Positions 28,041 to 63,153 of a stretch of DNA of 64,000 nucleotides are shown one piece after another (position 1 is the stretch's first letter; each line of letters starts with the position of its first letter). This DNA comes from Phycisphaerales bacterium (GTDB taxonomy: Bacteria > Planctomycetota > Phycisphaerae > Phycisphaerales > SM1A02). A program made the translations under genes and the position numbers. The stretch spans positions 1 to 64,000 of the forward strand of contig JAJDDB010000012.1 of the NCBI GenBank assembly GCA_029260575.1, written 5' to 3'. The notes beneath the pieces are model-generated. The model did not search any database and was not told the DNA's origin. It saw nothing but the letters and a program-made list of their open reading frames with translations.

Positions 28041-29285
28041 TCACGTAATCTGTTCCGAGGACCGAGCCGCCGATTCCACGCCGGTCGAGACATCCCCGGT
28101 TTCCGGGCCTTGAAGCACCGGCCAGGACCGTTCGAGCAAAGACCACGCATCTTCGCGAATCGCCTGACGAATGTCCAGCAGCAGGCGCTGCTCGTGCCTC
28201 ATGTTATGAATAGACACCAGAATCGGTCCCAACATCTCGCTGGCAGCAAAAAGATGCCGGAGATATGCCCGGCTGAACCCGCCCCGGCAGGCCTCGCAGT
28301 CACAATCCGCCTCAATGACCGCATCATCTTCAGCAAACCGGGCGTTTCGCAGCCGCAATACGCCGGATCGCGTAAATGCCTGTGCATTACGGCCGTTGCG
28401 GGTCGGAAGCACACAGTCAAACATGTCCACCCCGGCCCGAACTGCCATGACGATGTCCCGCTCGTACCCGACGCCCATCAGGTAGCGGGGCTTTTCCGCA
28501 GGCAGCAGCGGCGCGGTGAACTCCACCACCTGACGAATCTGCTCGGTCCCCTCGCCCACTGCCACACCCCCGATTGCGTAGCCGGGCAGATCGATGCCGC
28601 AGACTTGCTCGGCAGAGCGCCTGCGGAGATCCCTATCCAGCCCGCCCTGAACGATGCCGAACAGTGCCTGTTCATCAGGCCGGGCGTGAGCAGCCTTGCA
28701 CCGCTCCAACCAGCGAATCGTCCGCTCAGTGGCATCTTCGACACGCGCCCGATATTCCGCAGAGCAAAGCTCACCCTTACCGGAGGCATCGCTGCCATCC
28801 GCAGCTTTCGTCGCAGCGACTTCGGCCGGCGGACAATCATCAAATGCCATGATGATGTCAGCACCAAGATTATTCTGTACTTCAATGGAACGCTCGGGCG
28901 TGAGGCGAATCTTTGAGCCGTCGATGATTGACTTGAACGTAACGCCGTCCTCATCAATCGAATTGATATCCGCCATGGAGAACGCCTGATACCCGCCTGA
29001 GTCTGTAAGGATCGGTCCGTTCCACCGCATGAACGCATGCGCGCCACCGCGCCGCGCGACAAGATCGTCACCCGGCCGAAGCATCAGGTGATAGGCATTG
29101 TTGAGAATGATCTGGCTTCCGGTGCCTTCGATCTGCTGCGGCGTAAGGCCCTTAATCGTGCCTTTGGTTCCAACGGGCATGAATGCGGGTGTATCGAACC
29201 CGCCGTGCGGCGTTTCCACGCGCCCGACGCGGGCGTGGGTGGTCTTGCACTCATGCGAGATCGTGAATGACAACGGCTGCGGCAT
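28041..29285 (-). CDS. tgt: tRNA-guanine(34) transglycosylase
   Basis: About 414 residues. DSGGYQAFSMA carries the substrate-binding Asp, and MFDCVLPTRNGRNAQAFTRSG carries the catalytic Asp and conserved recognition residues. The zinc site is CDCEACRGGFSRAYLRHLF with a later His in LVSIHNMRHE. Tgt exchanges guanine 34 for preQ1 in GUN-anticodon tRNAs during queuosine synthesis. The frame extends to 29327, but the ATG at 29285 gives the standard MPQPLSFTISHE start. It heads the yajC-secDF run. No preQ1 synthesis or queA gene is in the window. A possible downstream Q-modifying glycosyltransferase is at 56-57 kb. Confidence 0.96.
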   Translation of the reverse strand: MPQPLSFTISHECKTTHARVGRVETPHGGFDTPAFMPVGTKGTIKGLTPQQIEGTGSQIILNNAYHLMLRPGDDLVARRGGAHAFMRWNGPILTDSGGYQAFSMADINSIDEDGVTFKSIIDGSKIRLTPERSIEVQNNLGADIIMAFDDCPPAEVAATKAADGSDASGKGELCSAEYRARVEDATERTIRWLERCKAAHARPDEQALFGIVQGGLDRDLRRRSAEQVCGIDLPGYAIGGVAVGEGTEQIRQVVEFTAPLLPAEKPRYLMGVGYERDIVMAVRAGVDMFDCVLPTRNGRNAQAFTRSGVLRLRNARFAEDDAVIEADCDCEACRGGFSRAYLRHLFAASEMLGPILVSIHNMRHEQRLLLDIRQAIREDAWSLLERSWPVLQGPETGDVSTGVESAARSSEQIT

Positions 29286-29396
29286 GGAAATGAATTTAGC
29301 CTCGTGCCACAGACATGTCATATCCACGTACTATTTTTTCGCAGGAATAGACGCGTCAATGGTATGCTCCACCCACATTTTAGACAGGGGGCTTTC

Positions 29397-55467: not shown

Positions 55468-56052
55468 ATGACCGATGAATCACATCGCGGCTGGCTTGTG
55501 CTCGCGCCAAACCTTCTGACCGGCTTGCGGCTGGGCCTGACGTTTGCTTTTCCGTTTATTGAACCGCGATGGTGGGCGCTCGTCATTCTTGTCGCCGGCT
55601 TGAGTGATCTTGCGGATGGCTTCATCGCCCGCAGATTCGATCTTGCAACATGGATCGGCGGCCTGCTTGATGCTGTCGCAGACAAAGCTTTCACGTTGGT
55701 AGTCCTTGTTACATTCATTCTGACCGGCCGGCTGGCATGGTGGATGGTTGCGGTTCTGTTCATTCGAGACATCGCTGTTGTCGTTGCGGCAGTATTCGCT
55801 GTGGCGGTTCGAGAATGGGGCGCGTTTCGGTTGATGTCATCGCGCTGGTTCGGCAAGCTCACGACAACGGTCATCTTCACCCTGCTCGTTGTCGTCGCGC
55901 TGTGGCCTGAGCAGCGCACAGCAACCCTTGTTCTGGTCAGCATTGGAGCGGTTCTGTCGTGTGCGGCCGGCATCGACTACTTCGTACAGTTTCTTGCTAT
56001 ACATGCCCGGTGGAAACGCGGAGAGCTTGGACACAATCACTGCGGCGTTTGA
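55468..56052 (+). CDS. CDP-alcohol phosphatidyltransferase family protein
   Basis: About 194 residues. The family motif is DLADGFIARRFDLATWIGG followed by LLDAVADK, with the DGxxAR...GxxxDxxxD residues intact, near residues 46-72. Several membrane helices surround it. Members make phosphatidylglycerol phosphate, cardiolipin or other phospholipids; PgsA is likely but not certain. The frame starts at 55447, but MTDESHRGW at 55468 is the better start. Its 3' end overlaps the convergent glycosyltransferase by 16 bases. Confidence 0.87.
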   Translation: MTDESHRGWLVLAPNLLTGLRLGLTFAFPFIEPRWWALVILVAGLSDLADGFIARRFDLATWIGGLLDAVADKAFTLVVLVTFILTGRLAWWMVAVLFIRDIAVVVAAVFAVAVREWGAFRLMSSRWFGKLTTTVIFTLLVVVALWPEQRTATLVLVSIGAVLSCAAGIDYFVQFLAIHARWKRGELGHNHCGV

Positions 56053-57125
56053 GCGCTAACACACTCTTCAATTGCGGTGTCCAATCGAGCTACAGCCTTT
56101 GATGCGCACGCTGGATCGAGATGCTGCCGGATTGCGAGAATCATCGCTTCACGATCGGCCGGTGGATTCATGGGATTCAATCCGTGGGCTTGATCAGGTA
56201 ACAACTCCGGGTAACTCAAACGATCCGGCAGCCACGGCAGCGCCCCGGCCAGCATTGACTCCACAACCGCAATGCCGAAGAACTCATGGTGAGCTGTGGA
56301 CAGCACCCAGTCGGCCCGCGCCAGCCACTGCCAGTACTGTTGACGCGATTCGACATAGCCGATGTGATCGATACGTGCCACACATTCACGTTTGAAGATC
56401 TGCATCGATTCGGGAATGTCTTCGTACTGTTCACCGAGAATGATCCAGCGCAAGTTGTGTGATTCTGAGTACTGCCGGGCAGTTGCCAGCAAATGTTCGG
56501 GACCTTTGTCATGCTCCCAGCGATGCGGCCAGACAACTGTTGTTGGAGCATCCGGGCGGTTGGTGCGAGTTGTTTCCAGAGTCTCGGGCGGCGGTTCCAC
56601 CGGTGGCCAGAGAACGCAACTTTTCGCCTCGATCATCGGCAACAGATGCTGCAACTTGCCATCGCGTGCATGCTTAAGCAACGTGCCGGCCCCGGCGAGC
56701 AGTGATGTCCTGTTCCAGTTGCTGTTGAACACGACGAGATCCGCTGCGGCGGCACTGAGCAGATTGGTCAATACAAAATGGGCATCACGCGGATCGTCAC
56801 CTTGTTCGCCGGATGGATACGCAGCCTGGTTCTCGTGCATGTAAAGAACTAAGGGTGTGTTGCGCAATCCAGCGGGTAACAGCGCCCTCAGATCGCTGGC
56901 GCTCATCAATGACGTGACGAAGATCGCATCAATCTGATCCGGCTTGATCGGCAGTTGCGACAGGTCATACACCATTTCAATCGCCGCAGTGCGCATACGC
57001 CATTTCCAGGCTCTGCCCGGTCGAGTCAGCCACGTCCACTGATGCATGGAGTGGCGTTCGATGGACTGCCGCACCGCGCGATGGCTGCCAGCATCAAATG
57101 ATTCAAACGCAAGAATGTGCAACAC
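56037..57125 (-). CDS. tRNA-queuosine mannosyltransferase-like glycosyltransferase (DUF3524, GT-B)
   Basis: About 362 residues from GTG at 57125, with AGGGG four bases before. The N-terminal DUF3524 domain begins LHILAFESFDAGSHRAV and contains LVLYMHENQAAYP and LVVFNSNWNRTSLL. The C-terminal GT-B half has VVWPHRWEHDKGPEHLL near 195, then LSTAHHEFFGIAVVESMLAG and RLSYPELLPDQA. These segments match the human queuosine mannosyltransferase QTMAN (GTDC1) closely, in particular WPHRWEHDKxPE and STAxHEFFGxAxxE. QTMAN adds mannose to queuosine 34 of tRNA-Asp. I infer that the protein modifies queuosine or a related nucleoside; tgt is in the same window. The longer open frame to 57623 overlaps the Fur-like gene and is not used. 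Confidence 0.87.
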   Translation of the reverse strand: MLHILAFESFDAGSHRAVRQSIERHSMHQWTWLTRPGRAWKWRMRTAAIEMVYDLSQLPIKPDQIDAIFVTSLMSASDLRALLPAGLRNTPLVLYMHENQAAYPSGEQGDDPRDAHFVLTNLLSAAAADLVVFNSNWNRTSLLAGAGTLLKHARDGKLQHLLPMIEAKSCVLWPPVEPPPETLETTRTNRPDAPTTVVWPHRWEHDKGPEHLLATARQYSESHNLRWIILGEQYEDIPESMQIFKRECVARIDHIGYVESRQQYWQWLARADWVLSTAHHEFFGIAVVESMLAGALPWLPDRLSYPELLPDQAHGLNPMNPPADREAMILAIRQHLDPACASKAVARLDTAIEECVSAQTPQ

Positions 57126-57191: not shown

Positions 57192-57716
57192 ATGGTTGAA
57201 TTGCCGCACCCGACACCTCCCCCGCCGCCGGCCAGCCCGCCGACTGAAGCTGCGACGATGGTTCCGCTGTGTGCAGTGTTTCGGCGATATCTCAGGTCGC
57301 AGAATCTGAAATACACACCCGAACGCGCGGACATTCTCAATGCGATCATCGAACGCGATGGCATCTTCGAAGTCGAACAGATGCTGATGGAAATGCGCGA
57401 GGAAGGCCACCGCGTCTCCAAGGCGACAATCTATCGAACCGTCAAGCTGCTCGAAGAAGCGGGCATCATTACGCACGCGCTGCTGGATTCCCGACAAGCG
57501 CATTACCGACTCATCTACGGCAAACAACCATGCGATTATCTCATCTGCATGAAAACCGGAAATTACATCGAATTCAACAGCAGTGAGTTGACCGCGATTC
57601 GTGATCGCATCTGCCGGGAACACGGCTGGGAACCGGTCGGCTACCGTTTACAGATCTACGGCATCAGCCCCGAAGGTCAAACTCTGGCAGATGATGAGGA
57701 TCACGACGCCGAGTGA
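57192..57716 (+). CDS. Fur-family transcriptional regulator lacking canonical metal ligands
   Basis: About 174 residues. The DNA-binding half is clear: KYTPERADILNAIIERDGIF and RVSKATIYRTVKLLEEAG. The dimerisation half keeps YIEFNSSELTAIRDRICREH and RLQIYGISPEG. In typical Fur proteins this half carries HHDH, CxxC, a His before RLxIYG and a C-terminal CxxC. Here these read PCDY, CMKT, GY and SPEG, so nearly all metal ligands are gone. The N-terminus has a Pro-rich run. It is divergent from the QTMAN-like gene with 66 bases between, so one shared promoter region is possible. It may act without metal or sense another ligand. Confidence 0.84.
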   Translation: MVELPHPTPPPPPASPPTEAATMVPLCAVFRRYLRSQNLKYTPERADILNAIIERDGIFEVEQMLMEMREEGHRVSKATIYRTVKLLEEAGIITHALLDSRQAHYRLIYGKQPCDYLICMKTGNYIEFNSSELTAIRDRICREHGWEPVGYRLQIYGISPEGQTLADDEDHDAE

Positions 57717-57735: not shown

Positions 57736-58404
57736 TTACATCTGCTCGAAATCATCTTCTCGCAGCGGGCGGGTGATCACACGGCTGCCCGAGAACCATT
57801 TGCCGAGGTCAACCATTCGGCAGCGCTGCGAGCAAAACGGAAACGAATCGGCCTGTGCATTGACAGACGTGCTGCATATCGGGCATGGCGAATCCTGACC
57901 GTGCTGCCGTACGGGTTGCAGATCGGCTATCCACTGCGCATCAAAGCCCACGGACTCAATCGTGATGCTGCGCTGTGCCGGTGTAATGTGTTCGAATTCA
58001 AGTCGAAAGTAGCGCTCGGGCAAGTCTGCTTCGATGCGATCGGCCCATTCCACCGCAATGATCATGCGGGCATCAGCGAGTAGCTCATCCCAACCGATGG
58101 AGTCCAGATCATCCGGATCGCGCAGCCGGTAGGCATCAAGATGCGCGAGCGAGACGGAATCGGCATGGTCAGTCTGCGCTTGATACTCCTGGCAGATCAG
58201 AAACGTCGGACTCGAAACAGCCTGCTCATCAAGTTGCAGGCCACGCACGAGGCCGCGCACAAAGCATGTCTTGCCGGAACCGAGCGGCCCGTTGAGCGCA
58301 AGCACATCGCCGCCGCGCAGTCGTTTCGCCAGCGCCTCGGCCAGCGCAATGGTTTCATCTTCCGAATTCGATTGAAACGCAGTCATCGGTGCAGTCTTTG
58401 TCAT
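57736..58404 (-). CDS. tsaE: TsaE (t6A synthesis ATPase) fused to a YacG-like zinc domain
   Basis: About 222 residues. Residues 1-165 are TsaE: the P loop GPLGSGKTCFVRGLVRGLQL, then SSPTFLICQEYQ, HLDAYRLRDPDDLDSIGWDE and IAVEWADRIEADLPE. Residues about 172-215 match YacG, a small DNA gyrase inhibitor: CPICSTSVN and FPFCSQRCRMVDLGKWFSG carry the four zinc Cys. TsaE supports TsaBD in making t6A37. The fusion is unusual. The ATG overlaps the thiL stop (ATGA), so translation is coupled. Confidence 0.9.
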   Translation of the reverse strand: MTKTAPMTAFQSNSEDETIALAEALAKRLRGGDVLALNGPLGSGKTCFVRGLVRGLQLDEQAVSSPTFLICQEYQAQTDHADSVSLAHLDAYRLRDPDDLDSIGWDELLADARMIIAVEWADRIEADLPERYFRLEFEHITPAQRSITIESVGFDAQWIADLQPVRQHGQDSPCPICSTSVNAQADSFPFCSQRCRMVDLGKWFSGSRVITRPLREDDFEQM

Positions 58405-59330
58405 TTCGTGCCATGTTCCCAACCGAATGTATCCACACGTTGCCAGTCGCCATCGACCCGCACCCACACTCGGCCCTCGGGTCGATCATCACCGTGTCGT
58501 GCCACCTCAACGACCTGCCCGATGCGCGTGACGGGTACCTGCCCAAGCATGTCCGGAACATTGCCAACAGCCGTGAAACACAACTCGTAGTCTTCGCCGT
58601 CGCCAAGCCCGCTGCGCCAATCGCAGCCGGGAGTTACAGGTATGTCTTCGGCCCAGATTTCAATACACACATCGGATTGTTCAGCGATATGGCCGGCATC
58701 GCGCCCCAACCCGTCGCTGAGGTCGATCATGCTATGCACGCGCTCACCAAGACGGTCGAGCAATTCCAGGGCTTCGTCAATCCGCGGTTCGAACGCAAGA
58801 TGCCTGCCTGATCCGTCAGGCTTGACCGATCCGCCGAGTGTGCCGGTGACATACACGCTATCGCCGACATGAGCGCCGCTGCGTTGCAGGACTCGTCCCG
58901 CACGCGGCGTCGCCAGCGCTGTGACTGAACACGTAAACGGCCCGGTTTTCTTTTTATGAAAAGCGATGTCGCCGCCAATGAGCGGGCAGGAGTACTGCTC
59001 GGCTGTTTCACGCATGGCATCGAACAATGTTTTCGTGGTTGGTTCATCAAAGTCGACGGGCAGCACGACTGCAACAAGTGTCGCAACTGGGAGCGCTGCC
59101 ATGGCTGCGACATCGCTGAGGCATCGCGTCACTGCCTTGCGGCCGACTGCTTCGATCGGCGTCGTGGCAAGCTGAACATGCACGCCATCGACGAGTTGGT
59201 CGACCGCTGCAAGCAGCCGCGGCGTGTCCAACTCGAGCATTGCCATGTCATCGCCCGGCGGAATGATGATTGACTCGCCAAGCGACTGACTAGCTTCATA
59301 CACATGGCCAAGCAATTCGAACTCGCGCAT
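58401..59330 (-). CDS. thiL: Thiamine-monophosphate kinase
   Basis: The 309 residues match ThiL. PPGDDMAMLEL and AAVDQLVDGVHVQL carry the metal ligands, TRCLSDVAAMAALPVATLVA the dimer helix, CPLIGGDIAFHKK the nucleotide site, and SMIDLSDGLGRDAGHIAEQS with GDGEDYELCF the C-terminal signature. It phosphorylates thiamine phosphate to the cofactor thiamine diphosphate. The stop overlaps the start of tsaE-yacG by four bases. Confidence 0.94.
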   Translation of the reverse strand: MREFELLGHVYEASQSLGESIIIPPGDDMAMLELDTPRLLAAVDQLVDGVHVQLATTPIEAVGRKAVTRCLSDVAAMAALPVATLVAVVLPVDFDEPTTKTLFDAMRETAEQYSCPLIGGDIAFHKKKTGPFTCSVTALATPRAGRVLQRSGAHVGDSVYVTGTLGGSVKPDGSGRHLAFEPRIDEALELLDRLGERVHSMIDLSDGLGRDAGHIAEQSDVCIEIWAEDIPVTPGCDWRSGLGDGEDYELCFTAVGNVPDMLGQVPVTRIGQVVEVARHGDDRPEGRVWVRVDGDWQRVDTFGWEHGTK

Positions 59331-61914: not shown

Positions 61915-63153
61915 TCAACCAAGCAGTTGCATGATCAAGGCGACCTGCCTGCGTGTTGCGCCTTGGTGTGCACGAATCACTGCCCGGCCCCGCTCGGCAA
62001 GTTGCAGGCGCTGCTGCGGATCTTCAAGGAGCTCGCGCAGTGCGGCAGACAGTTGCGCCCGATCCGTCTGGACAATGCCCTGGCCGTCCAGCAGCGCGCG
62101 AACAGTTTCCTGAAAATCCGCAACAGCAGGCCCGACGATTGTTGCTTTGCCGAGCGCTATCGGTTCCATCATGTCCGATCCGTGCAGGGCGCCGAAACTC
62201 CTGCCGACCACGACGACATCGGCAAGCGCATAGGCAGCGCGCAACTCGCCAATAGTGTCCAGGAGAAATCGATTGGTGGCGCTGCCGGATGTTCCCGTGG
62301 AACGCCGGGCGCAACCAGCTAATACGTTTGCAGCGTCATCGAACCATTCCGGGCGCCGCGGCGCGCACAGCAATTGCACCCCTGCAGGGACTGCGTCGAC
62401 AAGAAGTTGATGTTCATCGGGTGCTGTGGAACCGGCGACGATGAGCGGTTTGCCTGAATCGATTCCCAATTCCATCGCAAGCCCGTCAGCACCATCAACC
62501 GTATCGGTGAGTTCGGCTGTGTCCCATTTCATCGTGTCGGTGACATGGACACTATCTGCCGGTACGCCGAGCCTGATGAAGCGCTTGCCATAGTCTTCGT
62601 TCTGAACCGCAGCAAATTGCAATCGACGAAAACTCGGTTGTACGAACGGACGCAGTCGTTGATACCAGCGGAAGCTCCTGGCGCTGAGCCGGCCGTTGAC
62701 GACGCACAGCGGGATGTTCCGCTGTACGCATGCGGCAGTGAAATTCGGCCACAGTTCGAGTTCGACCAGCGCGACAACATCGGGTTGAATGCGATTGAGA
62801 AACCGCCGGACCGCAAAACTGAAATCGAACGGGTACCGGACAACGTCATGCTGGGTCGCGTACAGCTCTGTGGCGCGAGCGAAACCGGTGTCGGTTGTTG
62901 TGGCAATGACAATGCTCGGCGTAGGCGACTGGGCTGCAAGCTGTTGAACGAGCAGGCGAATCGCGTTGACCTCGCCCACCGAAACGGCGTGTAGCAGGAT
63001 TGTCGGCTGCTGCTGGCGGCTTCGAGTCAGACCGCGCCCTAATCGGGCCCGCCAATCTGTTCGGAGCTTGTTGGTCCGCAGCATTCGGGTCAGCCAGATG
63101 GGTGCTGAAACGACTGCAAACAGAAGATAGATCAGATCGACGACGAATCGCAT
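61915..63153 (-). CDS. waaA: 3-deoxy-D-manno-octulosonic acid transferase (Kdo transferase)
   Basis: The 412 residues match WaaA. An N-terminal membrane segment precedes TILLHAVSVGEVNAIRLLVQ, the HxxSxGE signature. DVVALVELELWPNFTAACV carries the conserved Glu region, PLCVVNGRLSARSFRWYQRL follows, and VVVGRSFGALHGSDMMEPIA is the C-terminal nucleotide-sugar site. It transfers Kdo to lipid A at the inner membrane, which points to lipopolysaccharide production. No other Kdo gene is in the window. Confidence 0.93.
   Translation of the reverse strand: MRFVVDLIYLLFAVVSAPIWLTRMLRTNKLRTDWRARLGRGLTRSRQQQPTILLHAVSVGEVNAIRLLVQQLAAQSPTPSIVIATTTDTGFARATELYATQHDVVRYPFDFSFAVRRFLNRIQPDVVALVELELWPNFTAACVQRNIPLCVVNGRLSARSFRWYQRLRPFVQPSFRRLQFAAVQNEDYGKRFIRLGVPADSVHVTDTMKWDTAELTDTVDGADGLAMELGIDSGKPLIVAGSTAPDEHQLLVDAVPAGVQLLCAPRRPEWFDDAANVLAGCARRSTGTSGSATNRFLLDTIGELRAAYALADVVVVGRSFGALHGSDMMEPIALGKATIVGPAVADFQETVRALLDGQGIVQTDRAQLSAALRELLEDPQQRLQLAERGRAVIRAHQGATRRQVALIMQLLG

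Follow-up and report, generated by a model that had tools for sequence, protein, structure and literature searches.

Does a bacterium that makes queuosine (Q) in its tRNA also decorate it with a sugar, as animals do? The question is raised by the window, i.e., the whole stretch of 64,000 nucleotides analyzed here, where a minus-strand open frame at 56037-57125 encodes a protein of 361 residues when read from the TTG at 57122; a GTG at 57125, with AGGGG just 5', is an alternative start. The gene and its two domains are as follows.

56037..57125, minus strand: QTMAN-family GT-B glycosyltransferase (QTMAN_N, 4.6e-46; GT4-type GT-B model, pLDDT 95.6)
56598..57116, minus strand: N-terminal QTMAN_N (DUF3524) domain, with the motifs GSH, WKWRMR, and HENQ..YP
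56040..56570, minus strand: C-terminal donor-side domain, with R201-x4-K206 (RWEHDK), EX7E (E280...E288), and LSYPE

The window protein, which is the sole QTMAN_N match in its own genome, matched this Pfam family (PF12038) over positions 2 to 168 of 168 with 157 bits against a cut-off of 25 (4.6e-46), far beyond chance. Behind it lay a match to Glycos_transf_1 (1.3e-10, 41.5 bits against a cut-off of 26.4), from which we chose residue 185 as the domain boundary. An earlier note on this DNA had read the protein as DUF3524, which we take to be the older name of QTMAN_N, joined to a GT-B part, and the Pfam matches bore this out, with a full-length QTMAN_N followed by group-1 glycosyltransferase domains. 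The three segments that the note had quoted, WPHRWEHDKGPE, STAHHEFFGIAVVE, and LSYPELLP, were found in the frame as well; they presumably resemble motifs of human QTMAN. At the level of sequence, what ties the window protein to the animal enzyme is the Pfam family and the family name, and a search against the sequences of solved structures gave no match at E 0.01.

An enzyme acting on queuosine needs a host that makes it, and the earlier note had pointed to a tgt gene in the same window. This gene was indeed found, about 27 kb from the QTMAN gene.

28041..29327, minus strand: tgt, tRNA-guanine transglycosylase (51-70% identity to three TGTs; pocket GGVAVG, preQ1 type)

Elsewhere in the genome we located queA (C27:312911-313978) and queG (C27:161002-161922), while a genome search for QueH gave nothing, so that tgt, queA, and queG are the genes for Q-tRNA synthesis present. 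According to the accessible part of one study, preQ1 TGTs have the pocket GGLAVG and queuine users GG[LS][AS]G (PMC11570991); the GGVAVG of the window TGT is closer to the former than to the latter.

In the mechanism that we propose, TGT would insert preQ1 at G34 of the GUN-anticodon tRNAs, QueA and QueG would convert it in the tRNA to queuosine, and the QTMAN-family enzyme would grip the anticodon loop, presumably by its N-terminal QTMAN_N domain as the acceptor side, and, with retention of configuration, attach one sugar, supplied by a nucleotide-sugar donor, to a cyclopentene-ring hydroxyl of Q34. If the animal enzyme is a guide, the likeliest product would be alpha-mannosyl-Q in tRNA-Asp, made from GDP-mannose. 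We infer the acceptor, the sugar, the tRNA, and the effect on decoding. That the gene encodes a Q34 tRNA glycosyltransferase of one kind or another is, in our judgment, likely; that its product is alpha-mannose on Q34 of tRNA-Asp, a narrower claim within the first and made by analogy, we put a little short of an even chance.

The catalytic residues are in keeping with the proposed reaction. In an alignment of 79 proteins that includes the window protein, and in which QTMAN_N was found in all 79, 14 positions were invariant (S13, H14, H96, E97, Q99, Y102, R201, D205, K206, G230, G283, E288, L302, and Y304). EX7E and R-x4-K form the donor-site signature of retaining GT4 enzymes, and this active site is complete in the window protein, as E280-E288 and R201-x4-K206; position 280 is E in 76 of the aligned proteins and D in 3. 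The family motifs GSH, W-K-W-R, and HENQ..YP are kept in its N-terminal domain, and it has R153 where 74 of the 79 have P. In the part of the work on the animal nucleoside that was available to us, mannosyl-queuosine (manQ) has an alpha linkage to the allylic hydroxyl in tRNA-Asp (PMC12518689), which is what a retaining enzyme would give and thus fits the retaining type of the window protein.

A structure prediction, which the earlier note had suggested, gave a confident AlphaFold model (pLDDT 95.6, pTM 0.93) with a GT4-type GT-B fold as judged by Foldseek and VIA-align. The 50 PDB entries listed had Z scores of 23 to 29 and were mostly GT4-type or related GT-B enzymes, headed by sucrose-phosphate synthase (6kih, Z 29.2, 3.1 A over 330 residues). 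Among them were the GDP-mannose enzymes PimA (2gej, Z 24.1, 3.9 A over 306) and PimB' (3oka, Z 23.4, 3.6 A over 320), as well as the methylmannose polysaccharide mannosyltransferase of M. hassiacum (7qsg, Z 27.7, 2.9 A over 315); the top Foldseek matches also included many users of UDP- or ADP-sugars (HepE, SenB, BshA, MshA, and glycogen synthase). Since many of the close folds belong to enzymes that handle neither mannose nor RNA, the fold names neither the donor nor the acceptor: the model, taken as predicted, fixes the kind of reaction and leaves the sugar and the acceptor unfixed.

This latitude bears on the alternative that survives best, namely, that the window protein does glycosylate Q34 but unlike the animal enzyme, with another sugar, on another hydroxyl, or in several GUN tRNAs. 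The many UDP- and ADP-sugar enzymes among the best structural matches would suit such a difference, and so would the phylogeny, in which the window's family forms a single clade (100/100) on a long stem of 1.2 changes per column in the 79-row tree, the window protein being 43 to 50% identical to members of this clade and only 27 to 39% to relatives outside it. However, GDP-mannose enzymes are found among the structural matches too, and the window protein retains all 16 positions that do not vary among the 74 relatives outside the clade, along with 35 of 36 conserved there at 95% (R153 being the exception) and 47 of 51 conserved at 90%. We consider this variant of Q34 glycosylation, which falls within the likely reading above, unlikely though by no means negligible.

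The gene family is far from confined to this genome. Among 294 Planctomycetota genomes at least 90% complete, QTMAN_N was found in 81, among them 5 of 14 genomes from the family to which the window belongs; the other 9 family genomes all have queA and tgt, and a patchy QTMAN beside constant queA and tgt is the pattern of an optional decoration of Q. Apparently broken copies were also seen: G139 has a remnant with two stops (G139:C24:228-356), and in G093 the gene is divided between two frames (G093:C1:1254105-1254603), as though some lineages were in the course of losing it. When species genomes were scanned with a pattern, at least 570 relatives were confirmed among at least 591 stretches; the best 80 were kept, and 46 of these entered the tree. 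By title, 40 of the 79 tree rows could be assigned to 12 phylum-level groups (Planctomycetota, Zixiibacteriota, Acidobacteriota, Actinomycetota, Nitrospirota, Thermodesulfobacteriota, Bacteroidota, Rhodothermota, Chloroflexota, Myxococcota, Lentisphaerota, and Pseudomonadota); the named records being metagenome bins, single-case assignments may reflect contamination. With two or three rows apiece, Actinomycetota, Nitrospirota, Bacteroidota, and Thermodesulfobacteriota each fall together on the same side of a well-supported branch; Planctomycetota (8 changes), Zixiibacteriota (4), and Acidobacteriota (3) are scattered, and horizontal transfer between groups is possible. A search for viral copies gave a single weak match (L112), limited to the generic C-terminal part, and the E. 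coli control gave no QTMAN_N match. A broader picture, which we hold to be less likely than not, is that sugar-Q is widespread and optional in about 12 bacterial phyla, and that the glycosyl-Q of the window's clade differs from animal mannosyl-Q in sugar, hydroxyl, or tRNA and is possibly an undescribed nucleoside.

A second alternative is that the gene encodes an ordinary GT4 enzyme for a cell-surface polysaccharide, a lipid, or a small molecule, with QTMAN_N reflecting common descent only. The fold is indeed common to such enzymes, and the weak NCBIfam matches of the relatives are mostly to polysaccharide GT4 families (EpsE in 36 of 79, HpsP in 26 of 79). The window protein itself, however, reached no NCBIfam cut-off and stayed far under those of the polysaccharide GT4 models, with 21.5 bits against 400 for XYAG1, its best match, 17.9 against 550 for HpsP, and 15.4 against 400 for EpsE. 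Its immediate neighbors, by Pfam, are Fur, TsaE-YacG, ThiL, and a CDP-alcohol phosphatidyltransferase, and judged by these the gene lies outside any polysaccharide cluster.

57258..57716, plus strand: Fur-family regulator, divergent neighbor (PF01475, 2.5e-24; beside QTMAN in L130-L133 too)
57736..58467, minus strand: TsaE with a C-terminal YacG domain, conserved neighbor (domain matches; loci of relatives)
58401..59330, minus strand: ThiL, thiamine-phosphate kinase, conserved neighbor (domain matches; loci of relatives)

The Fur frame is open from 57117, and the ATG at 57258 is our choice of start. Four other genomes of the family show the same gene order (QTMAN, divergent Fur, TsaE, ThiL, and one more gene, at 61915-63153 in the window), which indicates that QTMAN is firmly established in the chromosome of these bacteria; such an address, beside Fur, TsaE, and ThiL, also speaks against an ordinary surface GT4. 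Fur is divergently paired with QTMAN in all five QTMAN genomes of the family, and an iron-linked control of tRNA modification is conceivable. TsaE and YacG, a DNA gyrase inhibitor, share one frame (57736-58467, minus strand); the match covers both parts in L132 and L133, and the TsaE part alone was aligned in L130 and L131.

Searches with three TGT and two QueA sequences (E 1e-8) found neither gene near QTMAN in 110 loci (L002-L111), whose flanks measured 1.5 to 10 kb and were shorter at contig ends. An all-against-all comparison of frames from 80 loci and the window recovered, apart from QTMAN and its antisense frames, an ABC-type ATPase, seen in 14 loci; no other family was present in more than 6. 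In a set of 146 neighboring frames from 79 of the 80 loci (L077 was left out), chosen by length, cut at 420 residues, and surely including some spurious ones, the commonest of 144 families, isocitrate/isopropylmalate dehydrogenase, occurred 4 times. With neither tgt nor queA in the 110 loci and no neighbor standing out beyond the window's own family, we rejected the neighborhood as functional proof. The same set offers the ordinary-GT4 alternative a few sugar-nucleotide neighbors (an epimerase family in 3 of the 146 frames and a GDP-mannose dehydratase family in 2), but it shows no polysaccharide clusters.

The association with queuosine genes gave a further point of comparison. Co-occurrence of QTMAN with tgt and queA across planctomycetes had been proposed in the earlier note, and the comparison revealed no association: queA was present in 79 of 81 QTMAN planctomycetes and in 206 of 213 without QTMAN (p = 1), and for tgt the corresponding figures were 81 of 81 and 209 of 213 (p = 0.58). 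Because queuosine genes are near-universal in Planctomycetota (of the 294 genomes, 285 have queA and 290 tgt), the test is powerless there, and we dropped it as evidence. In Actinomycetota queuosine genes are patchy, which gives the test power; among 246 genomes of this phylum, QTMAN was found in 12 and queA above the TIGR00113 cut-off in 135. All 12 QTMAN genomes have queA, 11 above that cut-off and G295 by PF02547, its queA being two adjacent pieces that pass the latter model and were counted as present (136 of 246); the other queA matches under the cut-off (41 of 176 genomes with a match, G295 included) were scored as absent. The association was significant by the hypergeometric test, relatedness being ignored (6.5e-4), and stood at 2.3e-3 when three similar genomes were counted once, relatedness being otherwise ignored; again ignoring relatedness, it was 7.8e-4 with two more queA fragments counted (138) and 0.016 with all 176 genomes having any match. 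Such a restriction to queA-bearing genomes would be unexpected for a polysaccharide enzyme, and we hold the ordinary-GT4 alternative to be improbable.

Frequent occurrence of QTMAN in genomes devoid of a queuosine pathway, which the earlier note had named as the contrary outcome, was sought as well, and it was found neither in the QTMAN planctomycetes nor in the QTMAN Actinomycetota, all of which have tgt and queA, respectively, nor in a second sample made up of the 33 of the best 80 loci whose titles name no planctomycete, their completeness not being given. In these 33 genomes, queA was matched in 29 (27 above the cut-off) and tgt in 31 (28 above the cut-off), the three weaker tgt matches being fragments in genomes with queA above the cut-off. 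QueG and QueH were searched in the 4 genomes lacking queA; the two QTMAN genomes lacking tgt have QueH (G303) and QueG (G325), and in G326 tgt is the sole late queuosine gene, so that at least one such gene (tgt, queA, QueG, or QueH) was found in 33 of 33.

The prediction of a sugar on Q34 thus gained from the family, the predicted fold, the catalytic residues, and tgt, queA, and queG; what counts against it, besides the long stem of the clade, R153, the planctomycete figures, and the loci bare of tgt and queA, is a pair of QTMAN genomes of the window's own order, G057 (99% complete) and G137 (97%), in which two models detected no queA. Both keep tgt and QueG. The same holds for G117, a genome of this order that lacks QTMAN (the three are 97-99% complete), and queA was likewise undetected in G316 (L056), which has QTMAN, tgt, and QueG. 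Queuine salvage was disfavored as an explanation for G057 and G137, since the TGTs of these two and of G117 carry the extra valine of preQ1 enzymes (pocket GGVAVG in G057 and G137). When the frames beside QueG were crudely compared between three genomes without queA and three with it, no substitute for QueA emerged. The gap in the four genomes may reflect either assembly gaps or a novel QueA substitute. In G137, QTMAN (C22:55400-55915) and QueG (C22:64051-65040) share a contig, with about 8 kb between them, and queA was not found in the stretch of that contig spanning them. That the substrate is preQ1- or epoxy-Q-tRNA or another 7-deazaguanine product rather than finished Q, as G057, G137, and G316 might suggest, is very unlikely indeed, given that queA is present in nearly all QTMAN planctomycetes and every QTMAN actinomycete, that to our knowledge QueG has no role without QueA's product, and that preQ1 has no ring hydroxyl. 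Glycosylation of finished Q34 remains our preferred reading.

The family is already named, and its Pfam model matches many bacteria. In the literature searched, mostly outside subscription journals, no title among the matches listed dealt with bacterial QTMAN or bacterial sugar-Q, and DUF3524 went unmentioned. The passages available of a 2024 review place sugar forms of Q in vertebrates and describe the glutamyl form as known from bacteria only (PMC12710937). Relative to those passages a bacterial sugar-Q would be new, earlier reports being possible, and animals may not be the sole bearers of sugar-decorated queuosine. Lectin-binding RNA has been reported in E. coli, in the part of the source at hand (PMC12873605); since E. 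coli has no QTMAN_N match, this RNA has no bearing on QTMAN. If the prediction holds, bacterial genetics could reveal the effect of the sugar on decoding, and genes that resemble generic glycosyltransferases would become tRNA enzymes.

GT4 enzymes use a nucleotide-sugar donor and carry EX7E. The retaining GT4-type enzymes PimA, PimB', BshA, MshA, and SenB share the GT-B fold of the window protein (Z 23-28) but are only 12 to 16% identical to it and act on lipids or small molecules. GluQRS, the bacterial glutamyl-Q tRNA-Asp synthetase, likewise hypermodifies Q in tRNA-Asp, but it is an aminoacyl-tRNA synthetase paralogue and no glycosyltransferase. QTGAL, the animal tRNA-queuosine galactosyltransferase, also places a sugar on Q34; in the portion of the report seen, this is a beta-galactose on tRNA-Tyr (PMC12518689), and the beta linkage implies an inverting enzyme, which differs from the retaining type of the window protein. 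The closest counterpart is QTMAN/GTDC1, the animal tRNA-queuosine alpha-mannosyltransferase, which has in common with the window protein a full-length QTMAN_N and a GT4-type C-terminal domain, whereas the window protein, linked to it by the Pfam family, belongs to a bacterium that itself carries queA and queG.
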